A stretch of 64,000 nucleotides of DNA from Actinomadura flavalba DSM 45200. GTDB lineage: Bacteria; Actinomycetota; Actinomycetes; Streptosporangiales; Streptosporangiaceae. The position numbers and the translations under genes were made by a program. Numbering within the stretch: position 1 is the stretch's first letter; each line of letters opens with the position of its first letter. Positions 34,239 to 60,249 of the stretch are shown here, one piece after another. The DNA is taken from NCBI RefSeq assembly GCF_000374305.1, contig NZ_KB894096.1, positions 124,001 to 188,000 of the forward strand, read 5' to 3'. The notes beneath the pieces are model-generated. The model had not been told where the DNA came from. It searched no databases and saw only the letters and a list, made by a program, of their open reading frames with translations.

Positions 34239-34403
34239 GTGGCGTCGTGCTGTGAGCCGTGTCACGCCGAGGCGCTGGGCACAGCGTGCCCGGTGCGCGT
34301 GAACGGACGGGTGCGACACGCCGGACGCCGCCCAAACGTTCCGGAGGGTGCGGTCACCGTCACGCACGGCGTCCTGGAGCGGCCACGCCCTAGCCGGGAT
34401 TGA
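34239..34403 (+). CDS. Possible 54-residue Cys-rich small protein
   Basis: GTG 34239 has an excellent ribosome binding site, GAGGGG (34225-34230), 8 bases upstream. The frame encodes a peptide starting VASCCEPCHAEALGTACPV with four Cys and one His in the first 20 residues and ends within the convergent TetR gene (14-base overlap). About three quarters of third codon positions are G or C, somewhat low for this genome. I do not recognise a family, and it could be a chance frame. Confidence 0.3.
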   Translation: MASCCEPCHAEALGTACPVRVNGRVRHAGRRPNVPEGAVTVTHGVLERPRPSRD

Positions 34404-34983
34404 CGCCCGCGAGGGCCTGGTCGAGCCCCGCCGCGAAGCGCGCGTCCCAGTCGATCGGGGCCTCGCCGGGCGTGCCGACCGAGTCGCCCGGGAACGCGGG
34501 CGTGCCGCGCACCTCCAGGGCCGCGTGGCCGAGGACGAAGCCGAGCAGCACGTGGGCGGCGACGCGCGCGGTGTCCTCCGGGACGCCGCCGCCGCGCATC
34601 AGCTCCAGCAGCGACGCCGTCGTCGTGGTGAGCGCGGCCGGGTTGCGGCGGGTGACGAGCAGCGGCAGCACGCCCTGGTGGGTGAGCAGCCGGGCCCGGT
34701 AGGCGACGGCCCAGCGGTGCAGCGCGTCCCGCCAGCCGGTCGCGTCGCCCTCGCTCGCGGGCAGCACCGCGACGTGCGCGACGAGGTGGTCGAGCAGCTG
34801 CTCCTTGCCGCGCGGGAGGTGGTGGTAGATCGCCATCGCCTCGACCTCCAGCGCGTCGCCGAGGCGGCGCATCGTCAGCCGGCCGAGGCCCTGGCCGTCC
34901 ACGATCGACAGGGCCGCGTCGGTGATGCGGTCGATCGACAGGGGCGGGCGGTTCTGGGCGTTGATGCTGGGCTGCCGGACCAT
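34390..34983 (-). CDS. TetR/AcrR-family transcriptional regulator
   Basis: A 197-residue regulator. The N-terminal HTH (about residues 15-60) reads LSIDRITDAALSIVDGQGLG, LTMRRLGDALEVEAMAIYHH, a TetR signature. The C-terminal half (HRWAVAYRARLLTHQGVLPLL and later) is a TetR_C-type helical ligand domain. Start ATG 34983 has AGGGAGA upstream; an in-frame GTG at 35025 is possible but would sit on the palindromic element at 35025-35040. That element, CCTTACTGCGTAAAGA, lies 42 bases upstream of the ATG and is a good candidate for its own operator. Similar elements occur at 41.5, 47.7 and 53.6 kb. Confidence 0.9.
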   Translation of the reverse strand: MVRQPSINAQNRPPLSIDRITDAALSIVDGQGLGRLTMRRLGDALEVEAMAIYHHLPRGKEQLLDHLVAHVAVLPASEGDATGWRDALHRWAVAYRARLLTHQGVLPLLVTRRNPAALTTTTASLLELMRGGGVPEDTARVAAHVLLGFVLGHAALEVRGTPAFPGDSVGTPGEAPIDWDARFAAGLDQALAGVNPG

Positions 34984-35024
34984 CGGGACGTCTCCCTGCC
35001 TGGAGTCTGCGCGGACGGACGTCA

Positions 35025-35040
35025 CCTTACTGCGTAAAGA
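35025..35040. promoter_or_regulatory. Near-palindromic element, copy 1 (candidate TetR operator)
   Basis: CCTTACTGCGTAAAGA, in the leader of the TetR gene. Related to copies at 41536 (CCTTACTATGTCAAGG), 47669 (CTTACTATGTAAAGG) and 53570 (CCTTACTGTGTAAAGG), all in the same orientation. Read on the minus strand it includes a -10-like TAAGGT. Confidence 0.5.
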
Positions 35041-48733: not shown

Positions 48734-49906
48734 TCATGTGACGTTCGGCACCGGGGCGGGCGGGTCGGGGTTCCTGAGCCGGGCGCGGTCGGGTTTCCCG
48801 GACGGCAGCAGCGGGATCTGGGTGACGAGCTGGAGTTCGTGCGGGGCCGCGTAGGGCGGGAGCGTGGCGCGGACCCAGGCGCGCAGCTCGTCCAGGGCGG
48901 GGGCGGTGCCGCGCGGGACGACGACGGCGGTGACGCGTTCGCCCCAGCGGGGGTCGGCGCGGCCGACGACGACGACGTCGCCGACGCGGGGGTGGCGGGA
49001 CAGGACGGTGGCGACGTCTCCGGCGACGACCTTCTCGCCGCCGGTGTTGATGACGTCGTCGGCGCGGCCGGAGATCGTGAGGACGCCGCCGGTGAGGGCG
49101 CCGAGGTCGGCGGTGCGGAACCAGGCTCCGTCGCGGGCGGCGGCGGTGAGGTCGGGCCGGAGCCGGTAGCGGCTGAACAGGACGGGTCCGGCGAGGCGGA
49201 CGCGGCCGTCGGCGCCGGTGGTGACGCGGACGCCGTCCAGGGGGACGCCGTCGTAGACGCAGCCGCCGCAGGTCTCGCTCATGCCGTAGGTGGTGACGAC
49301 GCGGGCGCCGCGCGCGCGTGCCTCGGTGAGCAGGCCGGGGGCGGCGGGGGCGCCGCCGAGCAGGACGGTGCGGAAGCGGGTGAGGTCGGTGCCGTCGTCG
49401 AGGAGGCGGCGGAGCTGGGTGGGGACGAGGGACAGGTGCGCGACGCCGTCGGCGGCGGCCGGGTCGAACCGGGGGACGATGACGGGGTCGGTGCCGGCGA
49501 CCAGGGACCGGACGAGGACCTGGAGTCCGGCGATGTGGTCGGTGGGCAGGCAGCACAGCCAGCGGTCGCCGGGGGCGGCGCCGATGCGGTGCAGGGTGGC
49601 GGTGGCCGAGTGGCGCAGGGCGGCGGCGGTGAGTTCGACGGCCTTGGGGGCGCCGGTGGAGCCGGAGGTGGCGACGAGGACGGCGGTGGCGTCGTCGACG
49701 GGGATGCCGCCGGGGCGGGGGGTGAGGCCGTCGGGGGTCTCGACGGCGTGGGGGGCGACGGCGTCGAGGAGGGCGTCGCGGGCGGGGGCGGGCAGGGCGG
49801 GGGAGAGGGGGCAGATCGCCGGGCCGGTGCCGTCCAGCGCGGCGGCCAGGGCGCTGAGCAGGCGCGGGCCGGGCGGCAGCACGAGGGCGTGCAGGCGGCG
49901 GTCCAT
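48734..49906 (-). CDS. menE: o-Succinylbenzoate--CoA ligase
   Basis: A 390-residue ANL-superfamily ligase activating o-succinylbenzoate for menaquinone synthesis. Seen: AMP loop LVATSGSTGAPKAVELT (about residue 77), TTYGMSETCGGCVYDG (about 198), GAWFRTADLG and SGRADDVINTGGEK; catalytic Lys near PSGKPDRARL at the end. The N-terminal region is short, as in other actinobacterial MenE. ATG 49906 lies 8 bases after TACGCT (49915-49920, minus strand). It is divergent from menB with a shared TGAAC-N2-GTTCA element between. Confidence 0.9.
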   Translation of the reverse strand: MDRRLHALVLPPGPRLLSALAAALDGTGPAICPLSPALPAPARDALLDAVAPHAVETPDGLTPRPGGIPVDDATAVLVATSGSTGAPKAVELTAAALRHSATATLHRIGAAPGDRWLCCLPTDHIAGLQVLVRSLVAGTDPVIVPRFDPAAADGVAHLSLVPTQLRRLLDDGTDLTRFRTVLLGGAPAAPGLLTEARARGARVVTTYGMSETCGGCVYDGVPLDGVRVTTGADGRVRLAGPVLFSRYRLRPDLTAAARDGAWFRTADLGALTGGVLTISGRADDVINTGGEKVVAGDVATVLSRHPRVGDVVVVGRADPRWGERVTAVVVPRGTAPALDELRAWVRATLPPYAAPHELQLVTQIPLLPSGKPDRARLRNPDPPAPVPNVT

Positions 49907-49914
49907 GATCCCTC

Positions 49915-49967
49915 AGCGTAGACGACCCCGCTGAACGTGTTCACTTTCCGGGCGGGTTGAATAGGGT
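49915..49967. promoter_or_regulatory. Divergent menE/menB promoters with shared palindromic operator
   Basis: TGAACGTGTTCA (49932-49943) is a perfect TGAAC-N2-GTTCA palindrome. On the minus strand TGAACA (49938-49943), 17 bases, then TACGCT (49915-49920) forms the menE promoter. On the plus strand TTCACT (49940-49945), 16 bases, then TAGGGT (49962-49967) forms a candidate menB promoter. The palindrome overlaps both -35 boxes. The menF promoter at 59.7 kb carries the same palindrome in the same place. Confidence 0.55.
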
Positions 49968-49993: not shown

Positions 49994-50893
49994 ATGGTCT
50001 CGGAGCTGTTCGACGCGGACGCCTGGACGGAGGTGGAGGGGTTCGGGTTCACCGACATCACCTACCACCGGGCGGTCGAGCACGGCACGGTGCGGATCGC
50101 GTTCGACCGGCCCGAGATCCGCAACGCGTTCCGGCCGCACACGGTGGACGAGCTGTACCGGGCGCTGGACCACGCGCGGATGTCGTCGGACGTCGGCTGC
50201 GTGCTGCTGACGGGGAACGGGCCGTCGCCGCGGGACGGCGGGTGGGCGTTCTGCTCGGGCGGCGACCAGCGCATCCGGGGCCGGGACGGCTACAAGTACG
50301 CCGAGGGTGAGACGTCGGACACGATCGACCCGGCGCGGGCGGGTCGGCTGCACATCCTGGAGGTGCAGCGGCTGATCCGGTTCATGGGCAAGGTCGTCAT
50401 CTGCGTCGTGCCGGGCTGGGCGGCGGGCGGCGGGCACAGCCTGCACGTGGTGGCCGATCTCACGCTGGCCAGCCGCGAGCACGCCCGGTTCAAGCAGACC
50501 GACGCCGACGTGGCCAGTTTCGACGGCGGGTTCGGGTCGGCGTACCTGGCGCGGCAGGTCGGGCAGAAGTTCGCCCGCGAGATCTTCTTCCTGGGTGACA
50601 CCTACTCGGCCGAGGACGCGCACCGGATGGGCATGGTGAACGCGGTCGTCCCGCACGCGGAGCTGGAGCGGACGGCGCTGGAGTGGGCGCGCAAGATCAA
50701 CGGTAAGAGCCCGACGGCGCAGCGGATGCTGAAGTTCGCGTTCAACGCGATCGACGACGGTCTGGTGGGGCAGCAGGTGTTCGCGGGGGAGACGACGCGG
50801 CTGGCCTACGGCACCGCCGAGGCGGCCGAGGGCAGGGACTCTTTCCTGGAAAAGCGTGATCCGGACTGGTCTCCGTACCCGTGGTACTACTAG
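49994..50893 (+). CDS. menB: 1,4-Dihydroxy-2-naphthoyl-CoA synthase
   Basis: A 299-residue crotonase-family enzyme closing the naphthoquinone ring from o-succinylbenzoyl-CoA. Typical MenB segments: ITYHRAVEHGTVRIAFDRPE, RNAFRPHTVDEL, CSGGDQRIRGRDGYKY (oxyanion region, about residue 95), VVPGWAAGGGHSLHVVADL, and the C-terminal DPDWSPYPWYY. AGAAGGAG precedes ATG 49994. It begins the menB, menC, menD operon and overlaps the longest possible menC frame by 13 bases. Confidence 0.96.
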   Translation: MVSELFDADAWTEVEGFGFTDITYHRAVEHGTVRIAFDRPEIRNAFRPHTVDELYRALDHARMSSDVGCVLLTGNGPSPRDGGWAFCSGGDQRIRGRDGYKYAEGETSDTIDPARAGRLHILEVQRLIRFMGKVVICVVPGWAAGGGHSLHVVADLTLASREHARFKQTDADVASFDGGFGSAYLARQVGQKFAREIFFLGDTYSAEDAHRMGMVNAVVPHAELERTALEWARKINGKSPTAQRMLKFAFNAIDDGLVGQQVFAGETTRLAYGTAEAAEGRDSFLEKRDPDWSPYPWYY

Positions 50894-50928
50894 GCGTCTT
50901 GTCCGACGCGGTGCAGGGGGTTCGACGG

Positions 50929-51858
50929 GTGCGGGTGTTCGCGATCCCGATGCGGACGCGGTTCCGCGGCGTCACGCGGCGGGAGGGAGCGCTGCTGCAC
51001 GGCCCCGCCGGGTGGGGGGAGTTCTCCCCGTTCGCCGAGTACGGCCCGGCGGAGGCGTCCCGATGGCTGGCGGCGGCCCGGGAAGCGTCCGGGGTGGGCT
51101 GGCCCGCGCCGGTGCGCGACCGGGTGCCGGTGAACGCCACGATCCCGGCGGTGGACGCGGCGACCGCGCACGCGCTGGCCAGGGCGTCGGGGTGCTCGAC
51201 GGCGAAGGTGAAGGTCGCCGAGCGCGGGCAGACCGACGCCGACGACCTGGCGCGGGTGGAGGCCGTCCGGGACGCGCTCGGCCCGGCCGGGAAGATCCGG
51301 GTGGACGCCAACGGCGCCTGGGACGTCGATCACGCGGTGGCGATCCTGCGGTCGCTGGGCCGGTTCGACCTGGAGTACGCCGAGCAGCCGTGCGCGACGC
51401 TGGAGGAGCTGGCGGCGGTGCGGATGCGGGTGGACGTGCCGGTCGCGGCCGACGAGTCGATCCGCCGCGCCGAGGACCCGCTGAAGGTGAAGGCGGCGGG
51501 CGCCGCCGACATCGCGGTGCTGAAGGTGCAGCCGCTGGGCGGGGTGCGGGCGGCGCTGCGGGTGGCCGAGGCGACGGGCCTGCCGGTGGTGGTGTCGAGC
51601 GCGGTGGAGACGTCGGTGGGGCTGGCGGCGGGGGTGGCGCTGGCGGCGGCGCTGCCCGAGCTGCCGTACGCGTGCGGGCTGGGGACGCTGTCGCTGCTGG
51701 AGGGCGACGTGGTGGACGAGCCGCTGGCGCCGGTGGACGGCGTCCTGGCCGTCCGGCGTCCGGAGGTGGACGAGGCGGCGCTGGCCCGGTTCGAGGCCGA
51801 TCCGTCCGGGTGGCGTGAGCGCGCGGACGCCGCGGCCGTGTATCTGGACGCGCGGTGA
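50929..51858 (+). CDS. menC: o-Succinylbenzoate synthase
   Basis: A 309-residue enolase-superfamily enzyme dehydrating SHCHC. The catalytic Lys pair is in STAKVKVAERG (about residue 87), metal ligands Asp in RVDANGAWD, Glu in LEYAEQPC and Asp in VAADESI, and the opposite Lys in VLKVQPLGG. The start GTG 50929 was chosen because AGGGGG lies 8 bases upstream and the product starts VRVFAIPMRTRFRG; GTG 50881, overlapping menB, is possible. The stop overlaps the menD GTG by 4 bases. Confidence 0.9.
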   Translation: MRVFAIPMRTRFRGVTRREGALLHGPAGWGEFSPFAEYGPAEASRWLAAAREASGVGWPAPVRDRVPVNATIPAVDAATAHALARASGCSTAKVKVAERGQTDADDLARVEAVRDALGPAGKIRVDANGAWDVDHAVAILRSLGRFDLEYAEQPCATLEELAAVRMRVDVPVAADESIRRAEDPLKVKAAGAADIAVLKVQPLGGVRAALRVAEATGLPVVVSSAVETSVGLAAGVALAAALPELPYACGLGTLSLLEGDVVDEPLAPVDGVLAVRRPEVDEAALARFEADPSGWRERADAAAVYLDAR

Positions 51859-53528
51859 ACCCGGCGACGGCGCTGGCGACCGTCCTGGTGGACGAGCTGG
51901 CGCGCTGCGGCATGACCGACGTGGTGCTGGCGCCGGGGTCGCGGTCGGCGCCGCTGGCGCTGGCGCTGGACGCGGCCGACCGGGCGGGCCGGCTGCGGCT
52001 GCACGTGCGGATCGACGAGCGGTCGGCGGCGTTCCTCGGGCTGGGGCTCGCCAAGCGGTCGGGGCGTCCGGTGGCGCTGGTGTGCACGTCGGGGACGGCG
52101 GCGGCGAACTTCCTTCCGGCGGTCGTGGAGGCGCACGAGTCGGGCGTCCCGCTGCTGGTGCTGACGGCCGACCGTCCGCCGGAACTGCGCGGCACGGGCG
52201 CGAACCAGACGATCGACCAGGTGAAGCTGTACGGCACGGCGGTGCGGTGGAGCAGCGAGGTCGGGGTGCCGGAGGACCGGCCGGGGATGGTGGCGTACTG
52301 GCGGTCGCTGGTGAGCCGCGCGTGGGGGATCGCGCTGGCGCCCGCGCCCGGGCCGGTGCATCTGAACGTCGCGTTCCGTGAGCCGCTGGTGCCCGACGGG
52401 GACGAGAACTGGTGCGAGCCGCTGGACGGTGACGCGACCGGCGCGTGGACGAAGGTGCGGGCGGCCACGCCGGGGTCGGTGCTGCACGTGCCGCCGACGC
52501 GGCGGGGGCTGCTGGTCGTCGGGGACGGGGCGGTGAACGTCAAGCGGTACGTGGCGGCGGCGTCGATGGCGGGGTGGCCGGTGCTGTCGGAGCCGTCGGG
52601 CAACGCCCGGTACGGCGACCACGCGCTGTCGGCGCACCATTTCCTGCTGGGGGTGCCGGAGTTCGTGGAGCGGCACCGTCCGGAGGTGGTGGTGACGCTG
52701 GGCAAGCCGGGGTTGTCGCGGCCGCTGCTGGCGCTGCTGCGGCGGGCCGAGGAGCACATCGTGCTGGCGCCGGACCTGACGCGCTGGCCCGACCCGGTGC
52801 GGTCGGCGACGCAGGTGGCGCAGGAGGTGGAGATCCCGGTCGTGTCGGGGGACGGGGCGTGGCTGCGGTCGTGGCAGACGGCCGACCTGGCCGCCGCCGA
52901 CGCCGTGGACGCGGTGCTGGACTCCGTCGCGGAGGTCACCGAGCCGGGGCTGGCGCGGGACCTGGCGGCGGGGCTGCCGGGCGGGGCGCTGCTGTTCTCG
53001 GCGGCGAGCATGCCGATCCGCGACCTGGACCAGGTGATGCGGCCCCGGCGCGGCATCCGGGTGCTGGCCAACCGGGGGGCGAGCGGCATCGACGGGCTCG
53101 TCTCGACGGCGGTGGGGGCGGCGCTGGCGCACGGAGGCCGGTCGTACGCGCTGCTGGGCGATCTGGCGTTCCTGCACGACCAGAACGGGCTGCTGCTGGG
53201 TCCGCACGAGCGCCGTCCGGATCTGGCGATCGTCGTGGTGAACAACCAGGGCGGCGGGATCTTCTCGCTGCTGCCGCAGGCGGCGCTGGCCGACCCGTTC
53301 GAGCGGGTCTTCGGCACCCCGCACAGCGTGGACTTCGCGGCGGTCGCGGAGGCGCACCGGCTGCCGTACCGGCGCCTGGAGACGGCGGGGGACCTGTCCA
53401 AGGCGCTGACGGGGGAGGGGCTGCGGATCGTGGAGGCCCGCACCGACCGGGAGAGGAACGCGGCCCTGCACGCCGACCTGCGGACGGCGGCGCACGCGGC
53501 CGTCCGAGAGACGCTGACGACCGGCTGA
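51855..53528 (+). CDS. menD: SEPHCHC synthase (menaquinone biosynthesis)
   Basis: A 557-residue thiamine-diphosphate enzyme adding 2-oxoglutarate-derived succinyl semialdehyde to isochorismate. N-terminal VLAPGSRSAPLALALDAAD and IDERSAAFLGLGLAK are strong MenD motifs; the ThDP/metal site is in LLGDLAFLHDQNGLLLG and VVNNQGGGIFSLLPQA (about residues 435-475). It uses the same cofactor whose pyrimidine is made by ThiC at 16 kb. GTG 51855 overlaps menC by 4 bases. It ends the operon; no clear terminator follows on the plus strand. Confidence 0.95.
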   Translation: MNPATALATVLVDELARCGMTDVVLAPGSRSAPLALALDAADRAGRLRLHVRIDERSAAFLGLGLAKRSGRPVALVCTSGTAAANFLPAVVEAHESGVPLLVLTADRPPELRGTGANQTIDQVKLYGTAVRWSSEVGVPEDRPGMVAYWRSLVSRAWGIALAPAPGPVHLNVAFREPLVPDGDENWCEPLDGDATGAWTKVRAATPGSVLHVPPTRRGLLVVGDGAVNVKRYVAAASMAGWPVLSEPSGNARYGDHALSAHHFLLGVPEFVERHRPEVVVTLGKPGLSRPLLALLRRAEEHIVLAPDLTRWPDPVRSATQVAQEVEIPVVSGDGAWLRSWQTADLAAADAVDAVLDSVAEVTEPGLARDLAAGLPGGALLFSAASMPIRDLDQVMRPRRGIRVLANRGASGIDGLVSTAVGAALAHGGRSYALLGDLAFLHDQNGLLLGPHERRPDLAIVVVNNQGGGIFSLLPQAALADPFERVFGTPHSVDFAAVAEAHRLPYRRLETAGDLSKALTGEGLRIVEARTDRERNAALHADLRTAAHAAVRETLTTG

Positions 53529-58417: not shown

Positions 58418-59653
58418 TCAGCCCTCCAGGGCGTACTGCATCGCGCGGAACTTGTTCTGCGCCTCGGCCAGCTCGGCCGCCGGGTCGGAACCGCCGACGA
58501 TGCCGCACCCCGCGAACAGCCGCGCCGACGCGCCGTCCACCTCCGCGCAGCGCAGCGCGATGCCCCACTCGCCGTCGCCGCGCGCGTCGATCCAGCCGAC
58601 CGGCGCCGCGTAACGGCCCCGGTCCATGCCCTCCAGCTCCGCGATCAGGTCGAGCGCGGCGGCCGTGGGGGCGCCGCCGACGGCAGGCGTCGGATGCAGC
58701 GCCGCCACCACGTCCAGCACCGACCGGTCGCCCGACAGGCGGCCGTGGATCGCCGACGCCAGATGCATCACGTTCGGCAGCCGCAGCAGCCGGGGCCGGT
58801 CGGGGACGTGCAGGTCGCTGCACAGCGGCCCCAGCGCGTCCCGCACCATGTCGGCGGCGTAGGCGTGCTCATGCTGGTCCTTGGCCGAGGCCAGCAGCGC
58901 CTCGCCGCGCGCCGCGTCGGCGGCCGGGCCCGTCCCGCGCGCCGACGTGCCCGCCAGCACCAGCGACTCCACCCGCCCCCCGTGCCGGCGCACCAGCAGC
59001 TCGGGCGTCGCCCCCACCAGGCCCGCCACCGCGAACGTGTAGCAGGCGGGATAGCGGGCGGCCAGGCGGCGCAGCAGGACGCGCGCGTCCAGCGGAGCGT
59101 CCGCGTGCGCGCGCAGGTCACGGGCCAGGACGACCTTGCCCAGGCGGCCCGCCCGGATGTGGTCGCGGGCCGTGGCGACCGCGTGCTGCCACGCCGGGGC
59201 GGGCAGCGCCCCGTCGCTCCACGTCAGCGGGCCCGGCGCGGTGGACGGCTGCACCAGGCCCGGGTGCGGCGGCTCGGCGCCGATGGTGGTGAGCCACGCC
59301 GTCCCGTCCCGGCGCCCCAGCACGTGCCGCGGCACGATGAGCACCGAACCGGGCGCGTGCGGGGTGAAGGCGAAACTGCCGAACGCCACCGGACCGGTCC
59401 CGGGCAAGGCCAGGGGGTCGTCGACGTGGGCGCCGGCGAACAGCTCGCGCAGCCGCGACGCGGCGTCGGTGAAACGCCCCGCGCCCGCGGGCAGCGTGAT
59501 GCGGGCCGCCTCGCCCCAGCCGATGACGCCGTCGCCGCGGTGGACCCACGCCAGCGCGTCGGGCGCCGGCAGATGCGCGAGCAGGTCACCGGGATCGGCG
59601 ACCGGCGCGGTGCGGACGGTCAGACGGTCCGTTGCAGTCGCGGCGAGCTTCAC
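58418..59653 (-). CDS. menF: Isochorismate synthase
   Basis: A 411-residue chorismate-binding enzyme converting chorismate to isochorismate for menaquinone. Conserved parts: KVVLARDLRAHAD (about residue 180), ATPELLVRRHGGRVESLVLA (about 225), ARGTGPAAD, the HPTPAVGGAPTAAAL motif (about 320) and AGCGIVGGSDPAAELAEAQN near the end. The start is GTG 59653, 7 bases after TACAGT (59661-59666, minus strand), so leaderless. The TTGAAC (59683-59688) -35 box lies within a TTGAACCCGTTCAA palindrome. A siderophore role is less likely because no siderophore gene is nearby. Confidence 0.9.
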   Translation of the reverse strand: MKLAATATDRLTVRTAPVADPGDLLAHLPAPDALAWVHRGDGVIGWGEAARITLPAGAGRFTDAASRLRELFAGAHVDDPLALPGTGPVAFGSFAFTPHAPGSVLIVPRHVLGRRDGTAWLTTIGAEPPHPGLVQPSTAPGPLTWSDGALPAPAWQHAVATARDHIRAGRLGKVVLARDLRAHADAPLDARVLLRRLAARYPACYTFAVAGLVGATPELLVRRHGGRVESLVLAGTSARGTGPAADAARGEALLASAKDQHEHAYAADMVRDALGPLCSDLHVPDRPRLLRLPNVMHLASAIHGRLSGDRSVLDVVAALHPTPAVGGAPTAAALDLIAELEGMDRGRYAAPVGWIDARGDGEWGIALRCAEVDGASARLFAGCGIVGGSDPAAELAEAQNKFRAMQYALEG

Positions 59654-59660
59654 GCGCCCA

Positions 59661-59688
59661 ACTGTACGGGAGAGTTGAACCCGTTCAA
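59661..59688 (-). promoter_or_regulatory. menF promoter with TGAAC-N2-GTTCA operator
   Basis: On the minus strand TTGAAC (59683-59688), 16 bases, TACAGT (59661-59666), then 7 bases to GTG. TTGAACCCGTTCAA (59675-59688) is a perfect palindrome covering the -35 box, the same core and placement as at menE/menB (49932-49943). Confidence 0.6.
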
Positions 59689-60201
59689 ACGCACGCCCCG
59701 ACGGTGAGGCACGCACCACACCCACCCCACCGCCCCCGCGACACCCCCACCCGAAGCGACCACCCCAGCCCACCCGAGTCCCGCCCACGCACCGCCGACG
59801 CCCCGGACGGGCCCCGGCCTCCACGACCGTCACCGCCCAGCCGACGCCTCCGCGCGCGGAAAACACCCTGCATTCAGAAGTCCACGACTCGCTCACGACC
59901 CGCCTCTCTCTCCCCCCCCCCCGCCCGCGCCCTCCGGACGCGAGCACGGAAGCGTCTCAATCTCCAAGCCCAGAAAACATCGCCCGAACGCCAGCCGTCA
60001 CGGGTCAGGGCCCCCCCCCGCGCGGAGGGCGCGGGTCTCCGCGCTGTTCTGCTTGGCCACACGGGCCGCCCCGCGTGGGGGAGGCGGTCAAGGTCGTCCG
60101 GGGCCGCGACCGGGCCCGCTGCTCGTCCCCCCGCCCACGCGGAGGACGCTCGCTCCCACCGTCCCGGCACCGCCGCGTGCCGGGGCGGCTTCGCGCCCCG
60201 A
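59689..60201. other. Gene-free interval with C-rich, A/C-skewed sequence
   Basis: No coding region is supported. The plus strand is markedly C- and A-rich (for example the CACACCCACCCCACCGCCC run near 59710). It contains CT-rich and poly-C tracts (about 59901-59925 and 60008-60016), which give G-runs on the minus strand. Open frames here show no codon bias or known motif. Confidence 0.5.
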
Positions 60202-60249
60202 CCCGGACTCGCCGCGCTCCGGCGGCCGCCGGAGCGCGGCGAGTCCGGG
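60202..60249. terminator. Perfect 24-bp inverted repeat after bioY, bidirectional terminator candidate
   Basis: The arms 60202-60225 and 60226-60249 are exact complements with no spacer (centre GGCGG/CCGCC); GGGTTTTCTT follows on the plus strand. It lies 50 bases downstream of the bioY stop on the minus strand. Confidence 0.65.

Follow-up and report, generated by a model that had tools for sequence, protein, structure and literature searches.

The menaquinone genes menF and menE/menB of Actinomadura flavalba DSM 45200 carry a palindrome in their promoters that we read, with a probability of roughly 0.75, as the 14-bp operator TTGAACNNGTTCAA of a TetR-family repressor with a TetR_C_23 domain, which would repress both units by binding over the −35 box. 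The site recurs at these promoters throughout the genus and, in other bacterial families, repeatedly precedes the gene of the same regulator. Most actinobacteria use menaquinone as their respiratory quinone, and TetR repressors acting on short palindromes are a known kind. A conserved operator is now paired with a candidate regulator whose family has a crystal structure; several targets can be named, some of them of unknown function, and control of the men genes in actinobacteria becomes directly testable by binding and deletion.

A palindrome on the putative −35 boxes of menE and menF

Within the window, that is, the whole stretch of 64,000 nucleotides analysed here, TGAACGTGTTCA occupies positions 49932-49943 in the 87-bp gap between menE and menB, where the first-pass annotation had reported it, and TTGAACCCGTTCAA lies upstream of menF, 21 bp from its GTG start (Table 1). 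The menF site matches TTGAACNNGTTCAA exactly; with the outermost base of each arm left free, so does the menE/menB site, whose core is exact and whose outer bases are C and C here. The annotation had further proposed that the unlinked menF carries the palindrome in the same position relative to its −35 box and that chance is an unlikely source. Indeed, the menF and menE sites both fall on the putative −35 box, and at up to one mismatch the window contains three matches against 0.37 expected, a count reached in 0 of 100 shuffles. The third match (50373-50384) lies within menB.

Table 1 Features of the men loci in the window
Feature	Position	Strand	Basis
Putative men operator CTGAACGTGTTCAC, core TGAACGTGTTCA	49931..49944	.	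sequence, genome scan, conservation
Putative −35 of menE, GTGAAC, inside operator	49939..49944	-	comparison with relatives
Putative −10 of menE, TACGCT, 18 bp from −35	49915..49920	-	
Conserved TTGAAT element, menB promoter region; distance to operator not fixed	49957..49962	+	
menE, o-succinylbenzoate--CoA ligase	48734..49906	-	NCBIfam and place beside menBCD
menB, 1,4-dihydroxy-2-naphthoyl-CoA synthase	49994..50893	+	family model above cut-off
menC, o-succinylbenzoate synthase	50881..51858	+	family model above cut-off
menD	51855..53528	+	family model above cut-off
Putative menF operator TTGAACCCGTTCAA	59675..59688	.	
Putative −35 of menF, TTGAAC, the outer operator arm	59683..59688	-	
Putative −10 of menF, TACAGT, 16 bp from −35	59661..59666	-	
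menF, isochorismate synthase, VKLAATATDRL..., GTG start 59653	58418..59653	-	isochor_syn

The whole genome (6,167,782 bases in 22 contigs, 99.27% complete) contains eight exact TGAACNNGTTCA sites, compared with none for the reversed control. Five fall in open reading frames as placed by a simple calling script, one has a LacI-like gene, named by eye, as its neighbour, and the last two lie at the men promoters. Since all eight are accounted for, an exact site at any further men gene promoter of this genome is ruled out, wherever menA and menG lie. When a −10 box was demanded 9-12 bp downstream (TGAACNNGTTCN{9,12}TANNNT), two places in the genome matched, the menE and menF promoters. Relaxing the scan to one or two mismatches yielded 121 places per strand versus 72 for the reversed control, and the 14 loci examined were mostly coding. 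At the site beside the LacI-like gene (L006, G000:C2:644197), TGAACCGGTTCA and a near-copy alongside stand between the regulator gene and a divergent ORF; this is probably the operator of the adjoining LacI-like regulator.

Comparison with relatives refined the promoter geometry. The −10 box of menF reads TACAGT or TAGAGT among the loci read, 16 bp from TTGAAC, and the GTG follows it so closely that a leaderless menF transcript is likely. For menE, the −35 arm is TTGAAC in most relatives read and GTGAAC in the window. The conserved element of the menB promoter region, GGTTGAAT, varies in its distance to the palindrome (L016, L025, L033) and persists in menE/menB gaps of sister genera that have no palindrome (L158, L161, L163). 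The earlier claim that the site overlaps the −35 boxes of both divergent promoters is thus well supported for menE but not for menB. On the best reading of these sequences, menF and menE are the genes for which the site behaves like an operator; where it stands with respect to the menB promoter is not conserved.

The gene assignments differ in firmness. For menE the best NCBIfam matches are menE models, both under their curated cut-offs (309.6 versus 345 bits and 201.3 versus 330 bits); for menF the isochor_syn model is above its cut-off, scored on a longer ORF extending to 59947. The menC reading frame overlaps the end of menB, so the two probably form one operon. Two other features were seen near menF: a perfect, loop-free 48-base palindrome (60202-60249; arms of 24 bases) that separates a BioY-like gene, named by eye, from menF and is possibly a terminator, and an 11-C run (59912-59922) in the long gap upstream of menF. 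As to a local regulator, inspection by eye of a rough gene list for window 30-64 kb found one TetR-like gene (34390-35025), 14 kb off, and a regulator beside the men genes was discarded on this rough view.

Conservation in Actinomadura and near relatives

Among 60 genomes of the genus, all 51 menF genes with an assembled start have the exact TTGAACNNGTTCAA upstream (45 located by coordinates, those of L040, L042 and L056 by sequence, plus those of G027, G019 and G047). The menF of G037, cut before its start by a contig end, was left out, and in the rest of the 60 genomes the menF search gave no match or paralogues only. In the 45 genes, 17 or 18 bp separate TTGAACNNGTTCAA from the first residue of the query frame, which corresponds to about 21 bp from the GTG. 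For menE/menB we read 33 gaps, 30 from the 58 menB places found and three further ones; TGAACNNGTTCA is exact in 22, has one mismatch in 10 and two mismatches in one (L012). The first-pass annotation had suggested checking the men upstream regions for conservation, and had named absence from the men promoters of close relatives, or equal frequency at random genome positions, as results that would speak against an operator. The site is instead conserved across the genus and much rarer elsewhere, and a men operator is the best reading of the palindrome on this comparative evidence.

Alignment resolved invariant arms around a varying centre. At menF, TTGAAC and GTTCAA are invariant in 30 of 30 loci, with AG (18), GG (11) or GA (1) between them. 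At menE/menB, where the alignment of 32 loci omits L012 with its two mismatches, TGAAC and GTTC are invariant throughout, 22 loci retain the last A, and GC (23), GT (5), AT (2) or AC (2) forms the centre. Invariant arms with a varying centre form the pattern of a dimer-bound operator. Both arms are kept at menF, though just one of them is a −35 box.

Beyond the genus, the exact 14-mer occurs in 34 of 121 genomes of the order. It precedes menF, recognised by sequence in the g12 and g28 groups, in all four g12 genomes and the single g28 genome, and also in an Actinocorallia genome (L360). None of the five g12/g28 gaps read has an exact menE/menB site, which shows one mismatch in L159 and two in L166 and is gone in L158, L161 and L163; in g4, g14 and g7 loci the region upstream of menB is unrelated and contains no such site. 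Because the menE/menB site is decayed or gone in the g12/g28 gaps read and absent from the g4, g14 and g7 loci, recruitment of the men genes seems limited to Actinomadura and its close relatives, menF apparently being the more stable target.

The site probably marks a wider regulon

TTGAACNNGTTCAA was found without mismatch 81 times across the 60 genomes of the genus, compared with three for the reversed control. Besides the 51 menF genes, it precedes 24 genes for a TIGR01777-like oxidoreductase and four yndJ genes; the remaining two places are a TA-centred copy elsewhere (L110) and a copy inside a coding sequence (L141). Judged by this distribution, the site is not men-specific and appears to serve an actinobacterial regulon, whose commonest targets apart from the men genes are yndJ and the oxidoreductase gene. 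Scanning representative proteins against Pfam and NCBIfam gave clear YndJ and DUF1990 assignments. The oxidoreductase representative scored 205.8 bits, just below the TIGR01777 cut-off of 207.35; it is the one of the 24 scanned with family models, the others being recognised by peptide motif or by eye.

The neighbourhood of the oxidoreductase gene differs between species, whereas the site and a similar −35/−10 spacing are kept, and menF, menE and the oxidoreductase gene share a common layout of TTGAAC, 16-18 bp and TAnnnT. An alignment search for yndJ gave 80 named loci, in which sites lie upstream of the gene in Streptomyces, Micromonosporaceae and Streptosporangiaceae, often as two copies about 40 bp apart. 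At yndJ loci L096 and L115, one copy lies over the −35 box and the other between the −10 box and the start codon.

A TetR_C_23 protein is linked to the site in other families

No regulator gene adjoining yndJ was seen in the first ten yndJ loci. We listed the exact sites of 13 genomes with a yndJ site and read 18 regions away from yndJ. In seven of these (L343, L347, L348, L350, L351, L353, L355) the sites precede a gene for a small putative membrane protein followed by a TetR gene, in some of these operons with a DCC-type thiol oxidoreductase gene between them (Pfam for L351); sdhAB-like genes, named by eye, adjoin the operon in L351 and L353. In Phytohabitans (L309, L310, L315) and Pseudofrankia (L313, L318) the TetR gene stands directly behind the site and is followed by yndJ. 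The family was seen in Streptomyces, Kribbella, Micromonosporaceae, Pseudofrankia and many Streptosporangiaceae, and the three proteins tested with Pfam consist of TetR_N and TetR_C_23.

When the 121 genomes of the order were searched with a profile built from six of these TetR proteins, 58 yielded a single strong match each (E 3.6e-95 or better), and the remaining 63 had no match at 1e-25. The orthologue in the genome of the window lies at G000:C1:1288785-1289444 (E 8.4e-100), and its recognition segment TTMRAIAKEAGVSVGNAYYYF is nearly identical to that of the Streptomyces protein. In a profile comparison the orthologue matches 3c07_A over positions 7-224 of 226 (E 1.2e-110), a solved structure titled 'Putative tetR-family transcriptional regulator' whose entry names no function, operator or target. 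We take the 3c07 protein to be SCO4850 of S. coelicolor, which two transcriptome tables list as a TetR regulator with no function given.

To assess the linkage more broadly, we took 50 genomes, picked from the 80 yndJ genomes with knowledge of which had no yndJ site; 45 have the TetR gene and five do not, and 30 TetR loci were returned. Eighteen of these have an exact site and a second one (at most one mismatch) within 1.5 kb upstream, and in a nineteenth, L396, the sites lie about 1.8 kb upstream, as seen in L347. The other 11 loci have no such site: seven are of Streptosporangiaceae type (L409-L411, L415, L417-L419), and L397, L398, L404 and L405, which are not, have none within 1.5 kb of the TetR gene. 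Two of these last four belong to Streptomyces genomes (G171, G173) whose sole exact sites are at yndJ. None of the five TetR-less genomes (L314, L319, L323, L324, L325) has TGAACNNGTTCA in its yndJ locus, compared with 36 of the 45 TetR-bearing ones. The other nine are eight Kribbella and one labelled Streptomyces sp. SID13031, and all five TetR loci returned from them (L412, L413, L414, L416, L420) show a pair of sites in front of the TetR operon.

The family of the window behaves differently. There, no site at up to one mismatch was found near the TetR gene in any of 30 loci, nor in the seven Streptosporangiaceae-type loci just named, so the link between operator and TetR rests on the other families. 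With no site near the regulator gene, autoregulation would have been lost or never present in this family, and the target sites would lie away from the regulator gene.

Co-occurrence was also counted within the order. Sites at or just before gene starts, judged by eye, are present in 26 of 58 TetR-bearing genomes versus 0 of 63 TetR-less ones; when all exact sites are counted, those in mid-gene included, the figures are 26 of 58 versus 8 of 63. Mid-gene and gene-start placement were told apart with a simple ORF caller and by eye. Fisher values for the two contrasts, 1.1e-10 and 1.0e-4, are not calibrated, since the genomes are related, and serve as a guide only. Among the eight TetR-less genomes with sites, six have them in mid-gene and two have intergenic, TA-centred sites (L185, L202), which share the Phytohabitans form and are not dismissible on form alone. 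Among the 26, G081 and G086 have the site within the opening codons of a gene for a small protein. The exact 14-mer is absent from 32 of the 58 TetR-bearing genomes. In sum, the men sites have the TTGAACNNGTTCAA form, the genome encodes an orthologue of the regulator, and operator and regulator gene are physically linked in independent lineages, namely Streptomyces, Kribbella, Micromonosporaceae and Pseudofrankia.

Alternative readings

It is unlikely that a different TetR-type regulator, for example a KstR orthologue, binds the men sites while the TetR named here governs its own operon elsewhere only. The KstR core TnnAACnnGTTnnA fits the menF site, and the mycobacterial KstR operator is likewise a 14-bp palindrome with an AAC-N2-GTT core that is bound by an autoregulated TetR dimer and overlaps a promoter box (PMC1995591). 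As given there, KstR binds TAGAAC(N2)GTTCTA, so close specificities do exist within the TetR family. Yet the KstR arm TAGAAC, which the men sites do not have, differs by one base from TTGAAC, whose T is invariant in the 30 menF loci, and our operator further differs in its targets (men, yndJ and the TIGR01777-like gene) and in a regulator with TetR_C_23. The NCBIfam KstR model covers just the HTH of the candidate TetR, at about 36 bits versus a cut-off of 280, and the TetR_C_23 protein is the sole regulator gene repeatedly found behind the exact site.

That the same TetR acts as an activator of the men genes seems quite improbable. Sequence alone leaves the direction of control undecided, but the site covers the −35 box and the spacer, and the start region at yndJ as well, positions typical of repression, and TetR-family proteins are mostly repressors.

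We give very little credence to the idea that the palindrome is no operator at all and instead supplies a bidirectional promoter with two −35 boxes facing opposite ways, one TTGAAC per strand. It would suit the putative −35 boxes of menF and menE, which both read TTGAAC, and the divergent arrangement of menE and menB. The second arm is kept at menF in 30 of 30 loci, however, though no divergent gene start lies close in the window; the second yndJ copy of L096 and L115, lying downstream of the −10 box, is no −35 box for yndJ; and tandem copies of the site recur.

Control of the men genes by Rex through a shortened Rex operator is highly improbable: TGAACNNGTTCA is contained in the Streptomyces Rex operator, TGTGAACNNNTTCACA, with the same inner GAAC..GTTC, but the men sites have CTGAAC or TTTGAAC in place of the TGTGA ends of the Rex motif, whereas the Rex-like sites of the same genome, TTGTGAAGTACTTCACAAG and TTGTGAAGACATTCACAAG, carry TGTG/CACA ends. 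These two sites (L070, G000:C1:1940039; L071, G000:C5:222301) stand before FAD-dependent (geranylgeranyl-reductase-like) and ndh-like genes, named by eye.

Three other known systems deserve mention. The BioQ box, in the form given by the first-pass annotation (TGAAC-N3-GTTAC), shares the TGAAC arm and has a spacing of N3 versus N2. LacI-family operators have a central CG dinucleotide, and the centres found here are AG, GG, GA, GC, GT, AT and AC; the site adjoining the LacI-like gene was set aside by eye. We also discarded CrtR, the GGPP-responsive MarR regulator, whose motif centres on TTAA (PMC7432914, PMC6739363, PMC5401885).

Proposed mechanism and context

Returning to the TetR_C_23 repressor as the preferred reading, we infer that the TetR of this genome binds the men sites, represses them and is released by a ligand; the evidence tying it to the men genes is the shared operator sequence, the nearly identical recognition segment and the co-occurrence. 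A TetR dimer on the site would cover the −35 box and spacer of menF and of menE and thereby block RNA polymerase, until binding of the ligand releases it from the operator. Effects may also reach menB-menC-menD across the gap that these genes share with the divergent menE. Wider targets of the regulator would be yndJ, the TIGR01777-like oxidoreductase gene and the operon containing its own gene, and in Actinomadura and its close relatives the operator would have been gained by menF and menE/menB. With MenF converting chorismate to isochorismate and MenE and MenB working at late steps of naphthoate synthesis, control at both ends would set the flux through the pathway. Read in this way, the distribution suggests a clear case of regulon rewiring, in which a single operator serves genes of the yndJ type across several families and, in one group of genera, those for menaquinone synthesis.

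A more speculative extension, which we hold to be rather doubtful, is that the TetR senses a signal from the menaquinone pathway or the quinone pool. The regulon (yndJ, DUF1990, TIGR01777-like, DCC-type and men genes) would then form one quinone or membrane-redox response, and here the regulator would be a dedicated naphthoquinone feedback controller. If true, the orphan YndJ, DUF1990 and TIGR01777 proteins would gain a role in quinone physiology.

Our literature search covered open-access papers, subscription papers being outside its scope, and among the matches listed no men-gene regulator using this site was found; among those listed for YndJ and DUF1990, titles and abstract openings contained nothing on regulation. 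The open literature searched thus showed neither this pairing of operator and regulator nor its proposed control of menaquinone genes. For comparison, PMC12421875 describes MenD feedback and MenF reversibility in Lactococcus and cites CRP and CcpA for men promoters elsewhere.

Further observations on related sites

In Phytohabitans (L309, L310, L315) the operators read TTGAACTAGTTCAA, and in the recognition segment of the TetR protein SVSN replaces SVGN; protein and site may possibly co-vary. At five loci the palindrome sits right at the first codons of its target gene or within them, the target being an oxidoreductase gene in L181 and L182 and a gene for a small putative membrane protein in L192, L206 and L208; this suggests leaderless transcripts that begin with the operator. 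A CRP-like site, TGTGAAACCGTTCACA, was seen upstream of a WhiB-like gene, named by eye, in the genome of the window (L069, G000:C12:109010). Finally, in three Streptomyces loci (L352, L354, L357) one exact site, the only one there, lies shortly before a gene whose product starts with MRSGAK or MRSGVK; this secreted or membrane protein is possibly another target.
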